A program made the translations under genes and the position numbers. A DNA stretch of 32,613 bases, from contig JAHBMJ010001320.1 in assembly GCA_018398765.1 (NCBI GenBank), forward strand, positions 1 to 32,613, given 5' to 3'. The number at the start of each line of letters is the position of its first letter. Within the stretch, counting starts at the first letter, position 1. Under the pieces are notes generated by a model. That model ran no database searches, was not told the DNA's origin, and saw nothing but the letters and a program-made list of their open reading frames with translations. Below are positions 1,023 to 15,500 of the stretch, one piece after another. The stretch comes from Chromera velia (taxonomy: Eukaryota > Sar > Chromeraceae).

Positions 1023-2740
1023 CCTCCCACGTCCTCACTCCCCCTCGGCTGCCTTCCATGCTTCCCAGCAGGGGCTCGGTCTTCTAGAGCTGTCCTTGTC
1101 AGGACCCGGACTCCTTGCGTCTTGGCTTCAGCCTCTCTTCTCTTTATGTCCCTGTTCCTCTCCCTTCTTCCATTCACCTTCTTCCCAGAGCCCTCCACTC
1201 CAGTCATCTTCACGTCCCCCGGTTCCGTCCCCTCATTCCCTTTCCCTCCTATCCCCCCCTGTGGTCCCCCCTCCGCCGGCCGGAGTGCTGAGGAGGAGGA
1301 GGAAGAAGAAGAAGAAGAAGAAGAAGAAGAGGTGAGGCTGACGATGGCGTTCACAACATCCCCCCCTTCGTTCCTTAGTGCCTGCCTCGCCGGCTCGCTG
1401 TCTGCCCTTGTCTGACCCATAACAAGGCGTATGTTTTCTTCTATCCATCTCTCCGCTCTCTTTGCTCTCTCTCTCTGCCTCTCGGCGTCCACATCCCCCA
1501 TCACCACGTCCGTCTCCATCCCTCTTCCCTTCCCCCCCCTTGTCTTCTTCTTCTTTTTCTTCTTTTTCTTTTTCTCCCCTTCCGGAGCTGGAGCGGAGGA
1601 GCAAAGGATGGCAGGATCTTTGATCTTACCCCCCACCCCTTCCCCCCCTTTCCCTCCCTCCCTCCCTGTCCCCTCCAGGGCCGAATTTATATACCGGGTG
1701 GCTCTCCCCCGGTGTTTTAGGTAAGTCCTACCCCCCCTCATGCACTCGACTTCGTTCTGTCCCCCCTTATACACGGGTGGAGGGGGATGGATGACAAGGG
1801 GAGAGTAGAATGACTCTCTGCCTCTAGACTGAACTCCTCCAACCCCATGCTCCCTTCCATTCCCTGTAGAACCCCCCCAAAGGCCCTGCAGAACACCCAG
1901 AATCTGAATCCCTGAGCTGCCCCTACACGGATTCTGAATAAACTCTCCCCCTCCTACCCCCCTCTCCCCCCCTTGCCACTTCGGAGGTTCTCCCCTCGGT
2001 TCTTGCCCCTCCCGGTCAGTAGACGGGGCTGAGCCTCCCGGAGGTTCCCACAAAGGCCCGTCTGGTCTGTGCTGTGCCGTAAAGAATTTCAAGGACATAG
2101 ATTGTCCTCTCACCCTCTCTCCCCCCCCACAGAGGGCATTCACTCGGATCATAACAGACTGGGTCCTGTGAGTCATCTTGGGAGCCTGTAGAGAGGAGGG
2201 AAGAAACAAGGAGGGGAACAGAGGAGCGTTTGCAGCCCTCTCCGGGGCAGGAGACTGAGCCCGACCCGGAGGGGGGTGCAAACGTCCTCTGTTAAAATTA
2301 GGGGCATGTCTTCGCTTACTTGAATTATCCATGCCTGCATTGGAAGCCCCGCCCGTCCTCTTCATACCCCTCCGTATCCAGAATCGAACGCCCCCGAGGT
2401 GCTTACATCGGATCAAGATGCCAAAACCTGCAGTCTCCTCCCCAAAACAATCCAGGAAGGTCTGGGCTGCAGCAGCATCTCTGAAAATAAGAATGCCGCC
2501 CCTCTGGAAAGAGATGAACTTCTTGATGATGCCGAAAGGAAGCTCGAATCCAGTGATGAAGTGGTACACTGTCAGCCTAGAGCCCTCCCTGAGCTGCTCT
2601 GTATCCCTCTCTCACTTCTCTTCAGAGGAGGAAGGAGGCCTGTCAAGAAACTCAATTCCCTCCACCATCCATGCACACGGATCAAAAACTATACCCTGGA
2701 GATGTGAGACTTCCGTAGCGAGTCTCTGGATCTTTCTCCC
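953..2740 (-). pseudogene. UBA-domain host gene, 3' part (exons 1b, 2, 3), split by a retroelement
   Basis: Three exon pieces fit in phase: 2740-2616 (rest of exon 1), 2576-2407 and 1587-953. Intron 1 is only 39 nt (GTGAGA...CTCTAG). Intron 2 is 819 nt (GTAAGC...CTCCAG). With the 5' piece at 10371-10238 and one copy of the target duplication removed, the product is 352 aa. Residues 85-141 (VYHFITGFELPFG...) have an RRM-like pattern of strands and helices. A Lys run follows at about 147-156. Residues 188-227 (WIEENIRLVMGQT...GDVVNAIVSLT) resemble the UBA of NAC-alpha and HYPK, ribosome-associated proteins. A Ser run from GAA-type repeats follows. The UBA match is family knowledge; the overall function is unknown. 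The insertion separates the start codon from the rest, so this allele should be inactive unless another start is used. Confidence 0.6.
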
Positions 2741-2811
2741 GATAATTGATTTGAAGAACAGATAATTGATTTGAAGAACACCTCCTGCTTGTCGTGAACA
2801 GAAAATCTGAA

Positions 2812-2865
2812 AGCGCTCAGGTCCAACCGGTTTCGGGCTTATCAAGCCTCGTCAGGGACAACGCT
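2812..2865 (-). ncRNA. Hammerhead ribozyme, copy 1
   Basis: Read on the minus strand: outer stem I AGCG pairs with CGCU, across an internal loop (UU opposite CUGAG). Inner stem I is GUCC with GGAC. The core CUGACGA follows, then stem II (GGCUU, loop GAU, AAGCC with one extra C), the core GAAA, and a palindromic stem III ACCGGU followed by U. Predicted cleavage lies between plus-strand positions 2825 and 2824 (GUU|GGACC on the RNA). All invariant core residues (CUGANGA, GAAA, UH) are present. This open-stem-I, very short stem-III form is the one known from PLE pseudo-LTRs. Orientation matches the RT. Confidence 0.85.
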
Positions 2866-3256
2866 ATACAGAGTTCTAAGCTCCAGACTGAAGTCTTTGG
2901 CTGAAATCACTTTAATGCTCTTCTGCTTGTTGATGCTAGACTAGCAAGAAACAGAGGCAGTTCAAGCTTCTTTCCAAAAATAATAATCATTGTTGAGCAT
3001 AGACGGTAGCCACCTTTTTTCGGAAGCTACTTTTTTTCGGCACGCCACGCGGTGCACAGCCAGGTTCTATATCTATGCGCGGTTCTAAGGGGCATGGGCG
3101 GGTCCGCTTGCGTGTTTGCGCTAAATACAGAACATTTAAATAAAACGAAATCATTTATTTCTACAATTGCAGAGGCTGGAGCTAAGTAGAAGCCTGTTTA
3201 TCAGTACTTCTACATAGACTACCTTTCATGGGGGTATACATCACATCAAAAGATCT

Positions 3257-3286
3257 TTTAATTCTTCCTGCAGGAAGAATTAAAAA
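3257..3286. repeat. 30-bp perfect palindrome in the left pseudo-LTR
   Basis: TTTTAATTCTTCCTG is followed directly by its reverse complement, centred on CTGCAG. It lies inside a wider inverted repeat that pairs 3220-3237 with 3287-3301, so a transcript would form a long hairpin. The right copy carries the same palindrome with one mismatch, preceded by AAGATC. Confidence 0.9.
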
Positions 3287-3399
3287 TACCCCCATGAAGG
3301 TCCAGCTGATTCTTATGCGGCAGCAGCTGTTGAAACACCAATTAATATTCACTCACAATTGATTACTTCCAAAAACATTTATTAATTTTCATTTTTGAG

Positions 3400-5911
3400 T
3401 CAATGTTCAGCTGCCTGTTTCTTTCTGATGTTTTTCTTCCATTCACTTTTCAACATAGAGAGCAGGTTCGGAGGGTTGCGTCGTGCAATCATAATACGGC
3501 AAGCTATTTTTCTTTGGAGCTGACGTCTAAAGAAACCAACAACAGGATCTAGTTAAGTAGATCCTTGTACCTTGAAGAAGAGATCATTAGATCTTTTCTG
3601 CGTGTTCGTTGCTTCTTTCAAGGGGTTATCGGCATTTTGCACAGCTCGCACTGCTTCAGCTCTCAATTGGTCGATGGAGGTGAGGACTTTCTTTCTTTCT
3701 TTCTCTCTGTCTATGAACTTGACTCTGCTTGCTTCTTGGAGAAGGAGGGGGAGGGGGTATCCCCTCTGCATGAAACGCAGGAGAACCTCAACCTGCTCCT
3801 TCCTGAAAACTGCTTCACATGTACAGAGACGCAGACGTCAGATTAATTCTGCTCTCACCAGTGACAGTTTCGTTCGCTTTCTGTGCGCTGATGTCCATGC
3901 CAGATATTGATGTGCATTCAGTGCCTTCGTGTGAGGACGAACCTCCAAGGCAATGAATTCCCCCTCCCAGCGTGCTGCCCATAGCTCTACATCAAGGTGG
4001 ATGATGGGTGTGTGGAATAAGTCCTTTGCTGCCACTATCGAGTAACTGCTAAAGCGCAAACGTATGTGTGGGTCTGTATATGTGAAGAAGGTGTCAAGAA
4101 AAGAAACCAAGGCTTCCTTTGTACTGTTAATCCATTCAAGCAATGCATCATCAATGTAACGGTCATATTCATTCAAGGCAGAGGGCTTGCTGTCACTGAA
4201 CAGAAAACCTTCGAATGCATGCGCCAACACCAGCTTCGCCATCTCCCCACCTGCCAAAGAGCCCATTGGCACACCCCCTTTCTGTTTAAAAAAAGAAACG
4301 TTCCCTTCTTTTAAATTATCGGTATACTGAAATATGACATGCAACAGAAGCCGAAACATGGCTCTCCAAATGGCGAGGAATTGATTCTCTCTCCATTCTT
4401 TTGGCTCGTAGGGCGGGCGTTCCTTCTCTATATGCGGGAGCATGTTTCTGCAGAAAAACTCTTTGTTTTCGTTTAAAACTTTGAACAGAACTTCAAGGAT
4501 TTTTGACTGGTCCAGGGAGGTGTATAGGGAAGAAACATCGGCAGTGGTAAGGAAGGAAGAAGCGTGAATTCTTTTCCTTTCGTACTTTCTAACTACCTCT
4601 GCAGATGCGATTATGTGCTGGCTGTGTGCTGTGGAAAAAGGCTGTAGTGTGATGGATATAATGCGATGTAGAGAAGAGAAGAGTGAGGAGCAAAGAGGGA
4701 TGATTGGCTGCCCCACGATCGGGTTTTTGTGGATCTTGATAATCATAAAGAATTCAGGGAGCCTGGCGTGCTCGATCTGCGCTGCTGTTTCCTTCCTTAC
4801 ATACAGAGAGAAAGAGAAATCAAGGAATTCAAGGCAGTCGGCCAGTTCGCGCACAAGCTTCTTCTCTTCCTCTATGGGATTACATGAGATCTTCTCGTAT
4901 GCCTCAGGGTCCCCGAGTTGCCTCAGGGCTTCCTTATCATACCAGACTAGGCCGATTGCACCCACTCCCATTCCCTTGTCCGTCATTCCCACCCTTACCC
5001 TCATGCCGAGCGTTTCTATTGCATTCATTGCATGAAGAGAAAGGTTAGATTTGGCAGGCGGAAAGAGAGAGGGACCCATCTCATGCATCGTATCGATCAG
5101 AGGTTTGACTAACAATCGTGACAGCGCAGACTGGTCGATGTCTTTCTTGTCCATCCATCGATCCGAAGAGGAGAAAAGACATGGCAGGCCTTCATTTGTT
5201 CTTCCTCGCTTTTCAAAGAAATTCTTTCATTTTGCTGTGCGAGCCAGCTCGTTCAGACTACTTTCGAGTTCCGATTGCAATTTGTGTAGAGGCATTGGAG
5301 CATCTACTAGAAACTTTACCCCCCGTGTGAGGAGCTCTTTCTCTGTAGAGGACAGCTCGCTGGGTTTGATACCAATCGCATATCAACACGACGGCAGAAG
5401 GTTTGCCTCTGCAGTCGGAACAGGGAGTCTCAGCCAGGTCTCGTTCATGAAGCTCTTCACAATCTTTTCTTTCTCTTTTTCCGTTTCCGCTCTCATAAGC
5501 CTCATGACACATTCATGCCGAAGATCAGCGTGGTTGATCCCTTTCCAGTCTGTGGAAGAGATTCGTGAATGTGGATGGGAGGAAGACGACAAACGAGCCG
5601 TTTTCGACAGGGAGGAAATAGGAAGGGAAGAAGAAGAAAAGGAAGAGGAGAGAGCCTGACAAGAGGAGGCGAGGGCTGCAACAGCATCATTCGAAACATT
5701 CTCTTCTGGATAGAGGGCATTCATATAGAAAAACCGTGCATAGAAACTCATGGAGGGTGAATTTGGCAGCAGAGCAGAGAGCATTCGATACAAGATGGAC
5801 AGTTTCTGAGAGTAGAGGGGAGAGGGGGAATATGGGCGGAAGAGTGGGTAGAAAGGTCGCACGTGAATCCTGTTATGGGTCTCTTTTTCGATCCTTGGAG
5901 ACGAAGGGAGT
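3400..5911 (-). pseudogene. Penelope-like reverse transcriptase with four in-frame stops
   Basis: One minus-strand frame stays coding from about 5911 to a TGA at 3400-3402, with stops inside at 5383 (TGA), 5227 (TGA), 3838 (TGA) and 3553 (TAA). The longest piece, 5154-3838, is 438 aa. In it are KIHK (140-143), motif A TTADVSSLYTSL with D207, GGVPMGSLAGGE (293-304), the catalytic RYIDD (332-336), then HLDVELW and EVRPHTKALNAHQYL...SAHRK, a PLE signature. Family-like text also lies beyond the stops: STEKELLTRGVKFL between 5383 and 5227, MQRGYPLPLLLQEA after 3838, and RIMIARRNPPNLL after 3553. The breaks therefore interrupt one protein rather than bound it. The role is copying element RNA into DNA at a nicked target. 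No GIY-YIG motif was found. Confidence 0.85.
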
Positions 5912-7375
5912 TCAACCCCTTCCTCCCCTACCTCCTCTGAGTGACCCTCGAATGGACCCTCGAAAGGAACCATGAAAGGCTCCCCGACTACCTCCTCTCC
6001 CCCTAGGCCTGCCTTGTCCCCCCCATCTACCTCTGCTTTGTTGGTTCTATTGGTGGAGCCTTGCAGGCGGAGGACCGTTCTGATGGAAGTACTGCTGGTG
6101 CAAACCCGACTGACCACCCTGTTGTGTGTACGAGGGGTGATACGCTTGGGCCTCGGGACCCTGGGGGTGATACCCTAGGATTTCAGGACCTTAGAGGCGA
6201 TACCCTTGGACCTTAGGACCCAGGGGGCGATACCCTTGGACCTCAGGACCCTGGGAGCGATACGCTTGGACCTCAGGACCCTGGGGGCGATATCCCTGGA
6301 CCTCAAGACCCTGAGGGCGATACCTTTGGACCTCAAGACCCTGGGGGCGATACTCATGGGCCTCAGGACCTTGAAGGTGATACCTTTGGACCTCCAGACC
6401 CTGAGGGCGATACCCTTGGGCCTCGGGACCTTGAGAGTGCGGGTTCTGGCCTTGGCTAGCGTGGGTCTGCTACACTGGAGCATTAGAAAAGAGTTGCATA
6501 TGGCTGAAATTTCCGTCTCCCCTGCCTGCTTCCCCATCTGAGCGGAATCTTTTCTACTGTTGCTCTGTTCTGCCTTCCGTCTGCTTCCCTTCTGCATTAC
6601 CGTCTCTCTCCTGCAGAGTCGCTGAGGAGTCGGCGGGAGCATTTCTTTTCTGCCTGCCCTTGTGGTTCTCTGTCTGGCTTTAGTCTTTCTTCTGTCTGTC
6701 CCCTTTCTTCTTTTTCTGAGTGTTTCCTCCTCTTTTCTCTGCGTCACCTGGGGGGGCTGATTCTTTGTGTTGACTTTTCTCTTTGGGGAGGGGGTGGGGG
6801 GCAGAGGTCGAAGGGAGGGTTCCGTCACCCTTTCCTTTCAGACGCGAGTCAACTTCCTGCTTCACGGTGTGGGAGACCGTATGCTTGAGCGCTTGCATGA
6901 GGGACATGAGCCCTCTAGGTATACGCTTCTCAATCTCTTTCTCGAGAAAGTTGAGTTCGTTTTTATACCTCTCTGCCTCCGTCTGAGCATCGCGTACCTC
7001 CATCGCCTTCTGTCTTACCCTCTCGCTCTGCGCCCTGAATTGGTGGAGAAGGATTGCGGGTACGACTGCATCGATGTGGGTAGCTTCAACACCGGGCAGA
7101 TCCTGAAACGCACGAACGTTCTTGTCTGCTACTTTGAGGATCTCGAGCGCATCTCTACAGATTCTGAAAGCCACGACCTCCCCAAATCTCGCCTCAATGC
7201 GAGCCTGCACATAAACCGACAGAGGAGCGCCAGTTATAATCAGTGGCTGCACGTCCCTTCTTACTTGTGGAGTGTCACTCAGGAACTCACTCCGCAAGTG
7301 AAGAGGAAAAGGAAGGAAAGGCAAAAAGCAGGTTCTGTCAGTGCCTTCATGCGCACTCCTCTCATTTCCTTTCAT
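5912..7375 (-). pseudogene. Gag-like ORF of the element: coiled coil, basic tail, 10-residue repeats, RGG tail
   Basis: This frame opens at ATG 7375 and runs 231 aa to TAA 6680. The first half includes PLIITGAPLSVYVQARIEAR, an RRM-like strand-helix start. A charged helix (RVRQKAMEVRDAQTEAERYK) and a Lys-rich tail follow. The same frame then stays protein-like past TAA 6680, TAG 6554, TAG 6470 and TAG 6047 to TGA 5912. It includes ten copies of a QGPEVQGYRP-type repeat (6435-6135) and an Arg-Gly-rich end (RGRGGSRGAFHGSFRGSIRG). RGG boxes and coiled coils suggest an RNA-binding nucleocapsid-type role, by analogy with LINE ORF1 or gag. This is inferred. The RT frame overlaps the end and lies in a +1 frame relative to it. 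Confidence 0.6.
6135..6435. repeat. 30-bp tandem repeat, ten units, inside the gag-like ORF
   Basis: The unit is close to GGCGATACCCTTGGACCTCA plus GGACCCTGGG, repeated ten times with point changes. Since 30 is a multiple of three, each unit encodes ten residues. On the minus strand, in the frame of the upstream gag-like ORF, this reads QGPEVQGYRP. The other open frames (for example PRVLRSKGIA on the minus strand, LDLRTLGAIP on the plus) are by-products of the periodicity. Confidence 0.9.
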
Positions 7376-7689
7376 TTTCTTTCTTCCATGCCTTGCTCAA
7401 TCGGCTTCCAACAGGCATTAGTCCTGTGAGGGCCGTCTGAGAGAGCAGGGAGATAAGAGGGGATGAGAAGGCAAAAAGAGAAGTAGTCATCCTACGTTTC
7501 TATTCCGTTTTATTTTTCTTTTACTCTTTTTTGCTTTCTTTTCGTCTTTAACTTCAATTCTTTGAAATTCTTTACATTTTTTTTCTTTTTGTTTCTTTGT
7601 GGAGTGAGACTGTTGTTTTCTGTCCCTTTTTCTGATAGCTGAGCGTTTCTCAGGAATTCGTACGTCTTATCAGTTAGGGAGGGTGAAAA

Positions 7690-8300
7690 CTCTAGTTTCC
7701 GTTTTCTTTGCTTTCTTCCTTCTGAGAGGGGAGTATCGCCCTGGATCTCACCCCGTATCTCTACAGACGAGAGAAAGAAGAGAGAAAGAAAGAGAGGAAA
7801 TTGTCAGTTTCCCTTGCTGAATATATTTTTTCAGTTCCTTTTCTTCAATCTAAGAAGGGAGTATCACTCAGGATCTCACTCCCTTTCTCGAGAAGTGGGA
7901 GAAACAAAGAAAAAGATGTGTCGATGTGTCTTGCCAAGTTCACTTTCTCTGCTCATTTTCTTCTGAGGGGGGAGTATTACTCAGGATCTCACTCCGTATC
8001 TCAAGAAGAGAAGTCTCTCAGAGAAAGATCACTGAATGGCTTTACGACGTTCAGCCTTTTCCTTTCCCTATGTGTCGTCATCGTCGTTTCTTCTTATATG
8101 TCGTCATCAATTACCGGCCGTTGCCTCTCGTTCTATCGTTTCTCTCTTTTGTTTCTTCTTGTGTGTCGTCATCACTTACCGGCCGTTGCCTTTCGTTCTA
8201 TCATTTCTCTCTTTTTCCTGAATCTTTCTCTCTCGTTTCTTCTTTTTCTGAACCTCTCATTCTCGTTTCTTCTTTTTCTGAACCTTTCTCTCTCTGTGTC
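7690..8300. repeat. Degenerate repeats in the element's spacer
   Basis: Three units share a block like GAGTATCACTCAGGATCTCA, starting near 7731, 7859 and 7971, about 112-128 bp apart. Related fragments lie near 7265 and 8308. From 8070 to 8206 a 63-bp unit with TTACCGGCCGTTGCC occurs twice. From 8216 to 8296 a 27-bp unit with TTTCTTCTTTTTCTGAACCT occurs three times. On the minus strand these read as Lys/Arg/Glu-rich peptide, so they may be a decayed charged linker. Confidence 0.7.
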
Positions 8301-8309
8301 GGCAACTTG

Positions 8310-9644
8310 AGTGTCACTCAGCATTCACTATGTCAGCGAGACAACATGGAGAGGAGAGGGCAGATGGAGAGCAAAAAATAAGAGGTGGATACTGCATGAC
8401 AGACCTTGTTGACTTCTTTCTGCACTTGGCTGAATTTCTCCTGTATGGCCGTTTAGATCAAGTCGAGGGAGGACTTGGGCATGTATTTCATGGAGCCGGT
8501 GCTTTTCATGATGGCTTCCTAGGCCTTACAAAGGCAGAGATGCCAGAATCTGGGATCAAGGGGCAGCCCTTCCAGGTTCATTAACCAGACATCATCACTG
8601 TCGTAGGCTGAATTCAGACCTGTGGGGTTTGCTGTGGGTGGCTGGGCTGCGGGTGGCTGGGCTTCGGGTGGCTGGGCTGCGGGTGGCTGGGCTTTGGGTG
8701 GCTGGACTCCGGGTTACATTACAGCTTCGTGCTGTCTCTGCTCACCTCCTTGCTCCCTTCACTCGTCTCCCTGCCCCTGCACTTGTCCTTACCCCTACTC
8801 CTGCTCCTGATTGGGTACTTGCGGGCGAAGTCTGTTCTCTTCCCCAACTTGCCTCTCTGAATCATCCTCGTCGTCGAACCGTAAACCATAACCCCTGCCC
8901 GTTGTTACTTTGCTCGATTTGGGCTACCACATCCACATCCCGCAAGTTGCTGCTCATACTTCCCCTTAACGCACGGGGCTCGGCGCTTCAAAATCCGTTC
9001 CCGTTTGCATTGCTGGGTTCTGTAAGTCCTCCCATGGGGGCAACCTTGACTGCTGCTGCGGCTGCTGCAATATGCCCGTTCGCATTGGGCCCGTTGGTGT
9101 ATGCACCTGCTCCATTGCCGGGAGGAGCTGCCTAAATGGGCGTAGGGGCAGGATCGGAGACGGAGACGGGTGATGGGTGCAGATCTGAGGCTTCGGGAGA
9201 AGGAATGAGGCCGTACTTTTGGGGGCGGGCTCTGACCTTAGCCAGAAGTTGGTCTGCACAGACGGGGAAGCGCTTGATCAGCTCAAGGTTTGTTTCATCG
9301 ATGATGGTGATCAAGTCGCCATCCACGTCTTCGGTCTCGAGAGAGAATTTCCTGTTCTTCCAGTCAAGGACATTCTCGAGGATCAGATGGGGAGGGAGAG
9401 AACCGGCCTTTGCCAGTTGCTGAATAATGGAGGTGAGGAAACATAGTTGCTTCCCCAGGCCTAGCTCCTCCTGCCTCTTCTCCTCATTGATCCCATCCAA
9501 GAGGAAAAAACGAGTCTGTCCCATTTGGATATACTTATCAAAACGATGGAAAATCCGCTCTGTGTGCATAATCTCTTTTGGGATAGAGTTTGGCAGGGAG
9601 ATAAAATACTTATGCAGACAAGAGTTGCTCTCCTCGTCACTCAT
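8310..9644 (-). pseudogene. ORF1 of the element (broken)
   Basis: ATG 9644 opens a clean 170-aa stretch (MSDEESNSCLHKYFISLPNS...) to TAG 9132. It contains LDGINEEKRQEELGLGKQL and ENVLDWKNRKFSLETEDVDG and ends in a Pro-rich tail. Protein-like text continues in the same frame (AAPPGNGAGAYTNGPNANGH, then an Ala run). Near 8890 it switches frame into GYGLRFDDEDDSERQ, a Gln-rich stretch, five QPPxA repeats (8700-8630) and DDVWLMNLEGLPLDPRFW. Stops lie at 8795 (TAG), 8789 (TAA), 8759 (TGA), 8714 (TAA), 8519 (TAG) and 8453 (TAA). No family was recognised. It is transcribed first, next to the 5' ribozyme. It may be a structural protein, but nothing in it proves that. Confidence 0.55.
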
Positions 9645-9702
9645 TCTGAACGCGAGGACTGGAAAGAAGGAGAAACAAGGTGGAGGGTCGGTTGACTTAA
9701 CT

Positions 9703-10237
9703 GATAATTGATTTGAAGAACACCTCCTCCTTGTCGTGAACAAAAAATCCGAAAGCGCTCAGGTCCAACCGGTTTCGGGCTTATCAAGCCTCGTCAGGGA
9801 CAACGCTATACAGAGTTTTAAGCTTCAAACTGAAGTGTTTGGCTGAAATAACTTTAATGCTCTTCTGCTTGTTGATGCTAGAGGCAGTTCGAGCTTCTTT
9901 CCAGAAACAATAATCATTGTTGAGCATAGACGGTAGCCACCTTTTTTCGGAAGCCACTTTTTTTCGGCACACCACGCGGTGTGCGGCCAGGTTCTATATC
10001 TATGCGCGGTGCTAAGGGGCATGGGCGGGCCCGCTTGTATGTTTGCGCTAAATACAGAACATTTAAATAAAATGAAGTCATTTATTTCTACAATTGCAGA
10101 GGCTGGAGCAAAGTAGAAGCCTGTTTATCAGTACTTCTACATAGACTACCTTTCATGGGGGTATACATCACATCAAAAGATCTTTTAATTCTTCCTACAG
10201 GAAGAATTAAAAGATCTTTTAATTCTTCCTGCAGTGC
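9703..10237 (-). repeat. Right pseudo-LTR (5' end of the element)
   Basis: Direct copy of the left repeat, offset 6942 bp at the ribozyme. It contains hammerhead copy 2. At its outer end the AAGATCTTTTAATTCTTCCT palindrome arm is followed by a second partial copy (10210-10234) before the host exon resumes at 10238. A few extra bases at the junction are typical of imprecise target-primed insertion. Confidence 0.85.
9754..9807 (-). ncRNA. Hammerhead ribozyme, copy 2
   Basis: The 54 nt are identical to copy 1, although the surrounding repeat has diverged by substitutions and small indels. Same fold: two-part stem I, CUGACGA, stem II hairpin with one bulged C, GAAA, and a self-complementary stem III. 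It sits at the 5' end of the element, where cleavage would define the 5' end of a transcript starting upstream or cut tandem transcripts into unit length. That role is known for the family and inferred here. Confidence 0.85.
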
Positions 10238-12530: not shown

Positions 12531-15500
12531 ATGAAGAGCTTTCTGGGCAGCGCGATCAGTAAGTACGATGTGGATGACTACGAGGACGATGAAGTGACGA
12601 AGGCTAAGGCAAAAACCGTGTACAAGCCCTGGGACCAAATTGTCACTGATGAGCAAAATCGACGAAGGTAGATACTCCGCTCCCCTCCCTTCTCGCCAAC
12701 CCCCCCCCTCCCGTTGCCATTGGTTTCATGTCACATACGTGCCTGCTCCTCTCTTCAATTCTTCACCATTCTTTCTGCCCCTCCCTACCCCCATTCGCCC
12801 CTCCTTTCACGCTCACCCCCACCTTCGAGTTGGTATGAAATGAAACTCAACTTGCAATACGTAGAGAGCAAGCACCCTTGGCCTGACTGCAGATTTCACG
12901 GTGCCTTCACTGGCGGGTTCTCTGCTGGCTTCTTTAACACCGTTGGCTCCAGGGAAGGTGGGCTGGTGTCGATAGGATTCGGTCCATTCTTGTTTGTTGG
13001 GATCGTATGGACACTTGCAGTCTCTTTCCGAGAGAGAGAGTGTCAGGTTTTTTCTGCTTCAGTACATTGAACTGACTGACTGACTGACTGACTGGCTGAC
13101 TGACTGACTGACTGATTGACTGACTGACTACCTGACTGACTGGCTGACTGACTGACTGACTGACTGACTGACTGACTGACTGACTGACTGACTGACTACC
13201 TGACTCACCGGCTGACTGACTGACTGACTGACTGACTGGCTGACTGACTGATTGACTGTCTGACTACCTGACTCACCGGCTGACTGACTGACTGACTGAC
13301 TGACTGACTTGAAGCCCTGTGTGCGTGTGAGGATGAGGGGACCTTTGTGGATGCACGCATATGCGCTTGAACAGCCGACTCGTGAATTCCGATGCAGACG
13401 TCTGACCGAAGTCTTCCTGCCAGGCGCCGACTAATAATTCCTTCTCTCTCTGTTTTCTCTCTCTCTGATCCCTTGCTCTCTCGCGGGCGCGCAGGATGGA
13501 AGCCTTCGGAATTCAAGTCGTCGGCAGGCAACAGGGGTGAGTCAAGCACTGGCAGGCAGGCAGGCAGGAGAGCACTTCATCCATCATTCCGTATTGGTGC
13601 GGCTGTGGATTTTCTCTTCCGTGTTCATGCAGGTTGAAGAGTCTCGCATGATGGATGGTACTGCAGGGGGAATGGGGAGAGTGGGGGAAGTGAAAGAGTT
13701 GAAGCGACCTCTCTGGGCACTCCGTCTCTTCTCTTCTCTTTTTGTTTCCTTGTTTTTGAATTTCTGCGAATGCAGCCGACAAGAGGAAGCAGAGGGTCGA
13801 GGACTACATGGACGAAGAGGACTTGAAAGAGTTCAGGGCAGCAGCTGCCTCGGGGGGGACGAAACGTCCAGGCCCTCTGTCTCAGGCTGCTGCAGAGGGA
13901 TTCAAGAAGAGAAGAGAGAAAGAACGAGAGGCGACCTCAGCTTCCTCTTCCTCCTCATCTTCCACTGCTGCTGCTGCTCGAGGAAAGGAAGAGGAGAGAG
14001 CTGCGGAGGGACGGGACGGGGAGGGGGAAGCTCCAGTGGCCCCATCTGCCGATTTGGCAGAGGGGTTGGGGGTCCTCAAGGGAGTCATGGAGGCCTCATC
14101 TTCAGTTGGTCCGTATGGCTGTCCGTCTGTTTGATTGCTTGATTGTTGGTTCTGTTCTTTTGTCTGTTTTTTCTTTCTTTTTGTCTGTGATGTACATGAA
14201 GAAAAGAAGGGAGAAGAAGAAACATATAGTCTGTCTGTCTGTCCATTCTATTATTTTCTCTCCATTGGTGGATGTCTCGGCCTCAGTTGATGGGCCTGTT
14301 TTGTCATTCACAGAGGGAAGGAAGGAGGGGGGGGGGGGAATGGGCAATGAGTGAGCCCCAACTTTTGTTCGATTGAAAGGGGCCTTCATGGACTTCGCTC
14401 CTCTCTAACTTCCTCTTCCTCTTCTTCTGTTCTGCCCTTCATCTGCACTGCATGCGACAAGAAAGGAAAGGGAGACGACGCGTTGATTTTGTTTGTCCTT
14501 CTTTCTCTCTCGCTGACGGGGACCTCTTCTTTCGTCTTTTTGTCGACTGTGAGTGAGCTGTTTGTTTGCAGGGTCGAAAATTCTGCGTCAGATGGGGTGG
14601 CGCCCCGGCACCCGGGTTTGCATGCCGCGTGCTCGTCGTGTGCCTCGAGAGCTCCGTGTCGCGTTGGATGAAATTCGGAGACGAGAGAAAGAAGAGAGGA
14701 GGGAAACGATGAAAAAAGAGGAGACTAAAAGAGAAGAGGGTGGGGGAGGATCCCCAAAGGAATCACGCCCTGTGGTAAAGGGTCCCACGATGCCTTCTCA
14801 GGCTGCCCTTGAGAGAATGCGTCTTGAGAGAGAGGTTGAGCAAGTGGAGATGGGAGGAGGAGAAGAGGAAGAAGAAGAGACAGAAGAGGCACGAAGATAT
14901 AGACGATTGAAAGAGAGGGCGGAGGCGATGGAAAGAGATCTGGAGAGACAATTCGGACTCTCTCAACACCGGCCGCCCGCCTTGTCGGCAGGTGACCCCC
15001 TTCCTCGACCGCTGGATGACGATCGTCGCGGTTTGGGATTTTCAGCCCCGTCTCTTCGTCAAATGGTGGACGTTCCTGGGTCGAGTACGGCTGTCTCTGG
15101 GCAGAGGGGGGGGAGAGCTGGTGGTGGTATGAGTGGAGGCCGTTTTCCGTTTTTACAGCAGAGAGGAATTTTGTGGGAAGAGGACGACAATGAGAGTAGT
15201 TTGATGATGGGAAGCTCTGCGGGATTGTTCGGAAAGGGGAGAGGGGGAAGGGGAAAGCCGAGTAGGGATGTGGAGGAGGATGAAATGGAGTCGAGTGGAT
15301 ACTTTTCTTTTCTTCCTGCAGAAGGGGAAGAGGAGCCGTTGTCTTCCTTTGGCCAGGCCGGTTCATCTAGAGACATCATGGGGATAGGTGCTGGGGAGGG
15401 GCCTCTTCCTCTCCCGGCAGGGGGGAGACCTCTCGCTCTGACGGTCCGTCCTTTCGTTCTTTTCAAGGGGGGAAGAAAAAACGTTTTTTTGGGTATATAG

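Follow-up and report, generated by a model that had tools for sequence, protein, structure and literature searches.

Do the terminal repeats of a Penelope-like element (PLE) in Chromera velia encode a pair of hammerhead ribozymes, and was the RNA of such elements cut in vivo before it was copied into DNA? Cleavage in vivo before reverse transcription is reported as unresolved for PLEs. The question was raised by a stretch of 32,613 nt of C. velia (contig JAHBMJ010001320.1, positions 1 to 32,613; hereafter the window), where a first-pass annotation had noted hammerhead-like sequences in both pseudo-long terminal repeats (pLTRs) of a PLE.

The element and its pair of hammerhead motifs

The element spans about 7.5 kb (2741-10234, putative ends). 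The first-pass annotation had called it a much larger element; its length exceeds only slightly the 4-6 kb that PMC6431247 gives for PLEs. A Penelope-type reverse transcriptase (RT) frame with a YIDD motif is located on the minus strand (3838-5226); it is interrupted by an in-frame stop (3838-3840) and continues to about 3555. The 3' pLTR in the RT sense (2757-3285, minus strand) reaches from the 3' end to an opening palindrome, and the 5' pLTR (9699-10234, minus strand) bears, on its outer side, one and a half units of the palindrome, the end points of both being inferred, those of the 3' pLTR from repeat comparison. Sequence repeat analysis placed a perfect 30-nt palindrome at the start of the 3' pLTR (3256-3285) and one with 1 mismatch at the start of the 5' pLTR (10183-10212). 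The terminal 22 nt (2761-2782, minus strand) form the tail site where the outer 3' ends of copies stop. A second tail site at the pLTR-internal junction (9694-9709, minus strand) is the putative start region of reverse transcription, as judged from the 3' ends of other copies. Thus, the element has the Penelope-type RT, the pLTRs, and the tail signature of a PLE. At the 3' end of the element, its final 20 nt occur twice in tandem (duplicate 2741-2760, within 2741-2780), perhaps a trace of the template end having been copied more than once.

The window RT was homologous to PLE-like proteins at 22-29% identity, one of which carries a GIY-YIG domain, and a protein from an MMETSP transcript was 93% identical to the window RT over 59% of it. 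While the window copy is broken by its in-frame stop, another copy (L010) is open over 614 aa; the RVT_1 match of this longer copy (E = 7e-4) was below the cut-off. Canonical PLEs carry a GIY-YIG endonuclease, and nuclease-less PLEs are known (PMC6431247). This endonuclease was found neither by Pfam, applied to the tested element frames and L010, nor by scanning the element and 21 RT loci with a loose motif. A PDB sequence search gave no match, and the mean pLDDT of the RT structure model was 58.5. The element also contains an open frame of 231 aa (6680-7375, minus strand) with only a weak Seryl_tRNA_N match below the cut-off, and tandem 30-nt repeats occur inside element frames at 6134-6463.

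Several other features were recorded in the window and its genome. Residues 49-325 of the C. velia CCMP2878 protein P0002 matched the window's genome at 100%, and the gene model of P0002 (C3880:27348-38655) fuses about 50 PLE RT residues with an unrelated exon, two copies of which lie around a PLE copy. Other repeat pairs in the window were 98% (30442-30741/32169-32468), 90% (24511-24794/26018-26301), and 99% identical (558-790/791-1023). A 538-aa minus-strand frame lies at 953-2569, its HYPK UBA match of 23 bits being below the cut-off of 27, and an exon of the window (14574-15500) gave no match when used as a protein query.

Direct comparison of both end repeats confirmed that the minus-strand sequences at 2812-2865, in the pLTR downstream of the RT, and at 9754-9807, in the upstream pLTR, are identical over 54 nt, as had been claimed. 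Read 5' to 3', the motif consists of outer stem I (AGCGTT), inner stem I (GTCC), the core CTGACGA, stem II (GGCTTGATAAGCCC), and GAA, followed by ACCGGT (positions 15.1 to 16.1), U17, the predicted cut, GGAC, CTG, and AGCGCT. Positions C3 to A9 correspond to 2855-2849. This letter-by-letter reading bore out the full core and the two-part stem I of the first-pass annotation and arrived at the same predicted cut, 2825|2824, with 9767|9766 in the second copy. The orientation was also correct, the motifs and the RT frame being on the same strand. All core nucleotides (CUGANGA ... GAAA ... UH) are present with three stems, open at stem I as in type I hammerheads. Stem I pairs as GUCC/GGAC in its inner part and AGCGUU/AGCGCU in its outer part. 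Stem II (GGCUU/AAGCC) requires one bulged C just ahead of GAAA, and stem III consists of ACCGGU alone, where a monomer could form two base pairs; the first-pass annotation was silent on this bulge and on the self-complementarity of stem III. A strict descriptor of our own matched only these two sites in the window. On 400 simulated windows (13.0 Mb), the same descriptor gave 6 matches, so one such family would arise by chance in a given window with odds of roughly 1 in 70. The free fold recovered stems I and II with part of the core mispaired and was only mildly better than that of shuffles (z = -1.64; 14 of 200 shuffles equally good).

A covariance-model search had been named among the checks that could refute the ribozyme, and its outcome in the window was literally negative. 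No hammerhead match was found by Rfam in the window at E <= 1 or in 2700-3000 at E <= 10. Among six loci of families B-E (the other PLE families are described below), Hammerhead_1 matched only two family E loci, at 32.6 and 21 bits, the better one just below the cut-off of 34 bits, which is a curated threshold and not a structural criterion; these matches give the motif an independent anchor. A genome-wide RF00163 search gave seven weak matches, none above the cut-off and the best being a family E copy (C3881, 28.8 bits); at that loose threshold the control also gave matches in 11 of 14 well-known genomes. Our own covariance model (R1) found unseen families weakly (12-19 bits, E 0.02-1) and missed family D, and free folding failed to return a hammerhead for representatives of families B and C. 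The pattern CTGANGA..GAAACCGG was rejected as a hammerhead finder, because its matches were mostly due to chance (63 vs 75 in the control).

Conservation within and between families

The first-pass annotation had attributed the identity of the two 54-nt motifs to selection or recent homogenization. The identical run around the motif is 67 nt long (2809-2875), while the longest identical run between the repeats is 86 nt and lies elsewhere (3184-3269), and 6.8% of all 54-nt windows in the repeat pair are without any difference. The lack of divergence in the motif is thus not remarkable. In the window's own family (family A), the core was intact in 9 and mutated in 11 of 20 copies, a count that leaves out L085 and L088, whose coverage does not include the motif. 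The substitutions affected C3 (4), U4 (1), G5 (1), G8 (2), and G12 (6), a total of 14 vs 9.4 expected from site-class rates, that is, no fewer than expected. Selection on the core within family A was accordingly rejected, homogenization was not borne out either, and the free variation of the core in other copies, which had been named as evidence against the ribozyme, was indeed found in this family. An excess inactivation of catalytic residues is not claimed: C3, G8, and G12 seemed over-mutated, with the same total of 14 vs 9.4, and core CpG compared with other CpG gave p = 0.07. The family A core has decayed much as the remainder of the repeat has, which is what old copies of any element would show.

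An RT search of the genome gave 39 matches with identities from 100% to about 30%, some of them pieces of one copy. Hammerhead motifs were present in family B (L059, L065, L094, and L095, as well as L027 and L031 with G12A), family C (L036, L060, and L061), family D (L029), family E (L089, L093, L096, and L097), family F (L019, L021, L104, and L111, as well as L105 with G12A), family G (L022 and L028, decayed), and family H (L023). Seemingly long frames in L027 and L029 (about 2000 aa) proved to be runs of N and were rejected. The copies of families B, C, D, F, G, and H neighbor RT genes, on the RT strand and about 0.65-1.2 kb beyond the aligned RT end. A relaxed descriptor applied to 27 RT loci gave 10 matches on the RT strand, 9 of them at the motif, and 0 on the opposite strand.

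Apart from the motif, pLTRs can hardly be aligned from one family to another. Stems I and II covaried with the core kept: in 10 hand-chosen sequences of families A, B, and E (MAFFT alignment, stem III left unpaired), 93.2% of cells were paired vs 74.5% in shuffles (0 of 500), and covariation was 0.664 vs 0.318 (0 of 500), with slid partners reaching at most 0.217. Three of the five measures lay beyond all 500 shuffles; the other two, pairs changed on both sides (224 of 500) and pair types (419 of 500), were not above them. Twelve representatives of families A-F and H were checked letter by letter for hammerhead parts, and stem III was self-complementary in all 12 (G-U counted as a pair), with the sequences ACCGGU, ACGCGU, AUGCGU, ACAUGU, ACUGCAGU, ACAGCUGU, ACAGUUGU, and ACAUGUGU. 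Since families A, B, and C were found by patterns containing CCGG, only D, E, F, and H are independent in this respect. The self-complementarity was lost in the decayed copies L076 and L022. It resembles that of the minimal PLE hammerheads, which reviews describe as cleaving as dimers (PMC6155905; PMC7761336).

The paired layout was found again in family F. The element at C180 has the pLTR-opening palindrome twice, 5.3 kb apart. Its downstream pLTR carries the motif 460 nt past the palindrome (L019), and an intact motif was found at the predicted place in the other pLTR (C180:46380-46600), 486 nt past the palindrome. Paired motifs are therefore a feature of at least two families. Taken with the stem covariation and with the truncation ends described below, this supports the claim of a hammerhead pair in PLE pLTRs and, with C. 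velia as the host, its assignment to a protist. We judged that the between-family evidence and these genomic footprints outweigh the negative Rfam result in the window and the variable core of family A.

The 30-nt palindrome itself (TTTTAATTCTTCCTGCAGGAAGAATTAAAA) opens the pLTRs and, with at most 3 mismatches allowed, turned up 29 times in the genome (C180, C3582, C659, C1924, and C795 among them; control 0). Its region is identical over 42 nt between families A and F, though their RTs are only about 50% identical, and the outer 5' ends of family A copies carry one to three palindrome units. Six palindrome sites outside RT loci were scanned, of which C600 has a ribozyme copy (core G12A), while the scan found none at C809, C499, C3923, C3244, and C3452. 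As for family E, a search of about 1.5 kb around its four loci detected no RT beside the hammerhead-bearing repeats. The repeat of L096 is found a second time at a distance of about 1.55 kb, where its motif is decayed (L103); family E may be a non-autonomous unit of about 1.55 kb, akin to a retrozyme.

Truncated copies and the predicted cut site

At their outer 3' ends, family A copies terminate with AATTATC, usually extended by 1-7 nt from the internal AGTTAAG. These ends resemble the PLE tail signature given in PMC11167929, so reverse transcription would start there. A 22-nt end probe for family A found 26 places (reversed control 0), which left 24 termini, 20 long and 4 short, once two duplicates had been removed, the inverted one at C2090 and that of the terminus at 2741. 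The four short copies were 54-64 nt long and had their starts at offsets 0, +5, +8, and +10, where 0 is the nucleotide directly following the predicted cut; a direct repeat of 13 nt flanks the C1403 copy. Solo family A fragments of 22-53 nt were absent when the end probe was used at up to 2 mismatches. At C2090:19880-20130 (L100), a family A mini-copy adjoins, in head-to-head arrangement, 38 nt of its own sequence in inverted form.

For family B, a first search scored 40 of 806 candidates and a second scored all 14. The census comprised 15 matches, with eight distinct truncation events at 0, 0, -1, -2, -2, -9, +12, and -59; C1633 and C196, which have common flanks, were counted once, and the offset of C1 comes from search coordinates only. 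Five of the eight were within 2 nt of the predicted site (p = 6e-6), the offsets -1 and -2 being ambiguous because of a run of four T there. The 5' flanks of these five copies differ, so they look like separate insertions, and two of them have five nucleotides in common after their 3' ends. The clustering at the predicted site was thus observed in family B, together with one exact case in family A, which on its own was weak (1 of 4, p = 0.16). When both families were pooled, 6 of 12 truncation ends were at most 2 nt from the predicted site (p about 4e-6) and 3 of 12 were exact (p about 1e-4), under a simple uniform null over 121 nt and with the +/-2 nt window chosen after the data were seen. 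The 12 ends exclude family A copies truncated far upstream (C3552, C3542, and C2979), the interrupted copy C1912, the first family B unit at C664 (start unclear), and C3135 (which runs through). The single truncated family F copy (C1744), which starts 55 nt upstream of the site, was also excluded; with it, the count is 6 of 13. In addition, two family B mini-units are arranged head to tail at C664:88060-88330 (L115), the second starting exactly after the predicted cut and abutting the 3' end of the first, which could reflect a circular or repeated template.

The position of truncation ends at or next to the predicted bond suggests that cleavage occurred in vivo before reverse transcription. 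A rather unlikely alternative is that the RT stalled at the folded hammerhead on uncut RNA, in which case the fold would be real and cutting in vivo would not be needed. Three of the four family A ends (+5, +8, and +10) lie within the 3' strand of stem I, as stalling would have it, but the family B ends at 0, 0, -1, -2, and -2 are at the bond itself and not at the far edge of stem I. We consider it very improbable that the motif of the window family is a decayed, inactive relic and that the footprints arose by chance or shared ancestry. The absence of an Rfam match in the window, the mutated core in 11 of 20 family A copies, and the bulged stem II fit a relic, but the stems covary across families, the paired layout is kept in family F, the truncation ends near the predicted bond have differing 5' flanks, and the core decays in line with the rest of the repeat (14 vs 9.4 expected). 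Also very improbable is an internal promoter that starts transcripts at this position beside an incidental hammerhead: promoters in pLTRs have been proposed for PLEs (PMC11167929) and genomic ends alone cannot separate a transcription start from a cut, but the start would have to coincide with the hammerhead cut site in each of two families with otherwise dissimilar repeats.

Proposed mechanism and known systems

We consider it fairly probable that each pLTR of the window PLE encodes a type I hammerhead, whose stem I has two parts, whose stem II is bulged, and whose stem III is self-complementary, and that cutting before copying yields the mini-copies. Catalysis, dimer action, and the order of steps are what we infer here. 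The predicted ribozyme would probably act best as a dimer, formed by two ribozymes of one transcript or by two transcripts. A cut after U17 would leave a 3' product whose first 60-70 nt reach the region where reverse transcription would start, as located from the 3' ends of genomic copies. If the RNA were cut before copying, the RT would stop at the new 5' end and a mini-copy of 60-70 nt would be inserted; if it were left uncut, a longer copy with pLTRs could form. More tentatively, and with slightly less than even confidence, we propose that the ribozyme gates retrotransposition: cut transcripts would give only mini-insertions of 60-70 nt that mark the cleavage site, and full-length copies would come from transcripts that escaped.

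Hammerhead ribozymes in protist PLEs are said to have been reported already in a 2014 abstract by Cervera and De la Pena, so the kind of element and its ribozyme are known, and the genomic footprints at the predicted cut site are the part that could potentially be new. An open-access literature search, which reached few subscription papers, gave no description of C. velia hammerheads or of Chromera Penelope elements. The window motifs share with the minimal PLE hammerheads reported by Cervera and De la Pena (2014) and by Lunse, Weinberg and Breaker (2017), as reviews describe them (PMC6155905; PMC7761336), the type I form in both flanking repeats and the very short self-complementary stem III expected for dimer action. 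They differ in the chromerid host, the outer stem I part, the bulged C in stem II, and the genomic truncation ends at the predicted cut described here.

The Poseidon element PAc of Anolis carolinensis (PMC11167929) likewise has pLTRs, a hammerhead near the pLTR-internal junction, an internal start of reverse transcription, and copies ending in the tail signature. In contrast to the Chromera element, in which none was found, PAc has a C-terminal GIY-YIG nuclease. Its hammerhead required protein in vitro, no RNA reads began or ended at its cut site, and cutting was unnecessary for insertion in vitro; these observations count against cutting before copying. Terminons, the giant PLE-related elements of rotifers (PMC6431247), also combine a PLE-type RT with hammerhead motifs and extra frames, but the Chromera element is far smaller, and the four kinds of telomere-type repeats counted were absent from the window. 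Retrozymes, as characterized in PMC6155905 and PMC7761336, share hammerheads in the repeated ends of a retroelement. By definition they are non-autonomous units giving circular RNA, whereas the window element carries its own RT.

If the ribozyme does gate retrotransposition, the genome of C. velia would keep a fossil record of hammerhead cleavage in vivo. Ribozyme-delimited mini-copies, if confirmed, would provide a purely genomic assay of in vivo cleavage that could be used on any PLE-bearing genome.
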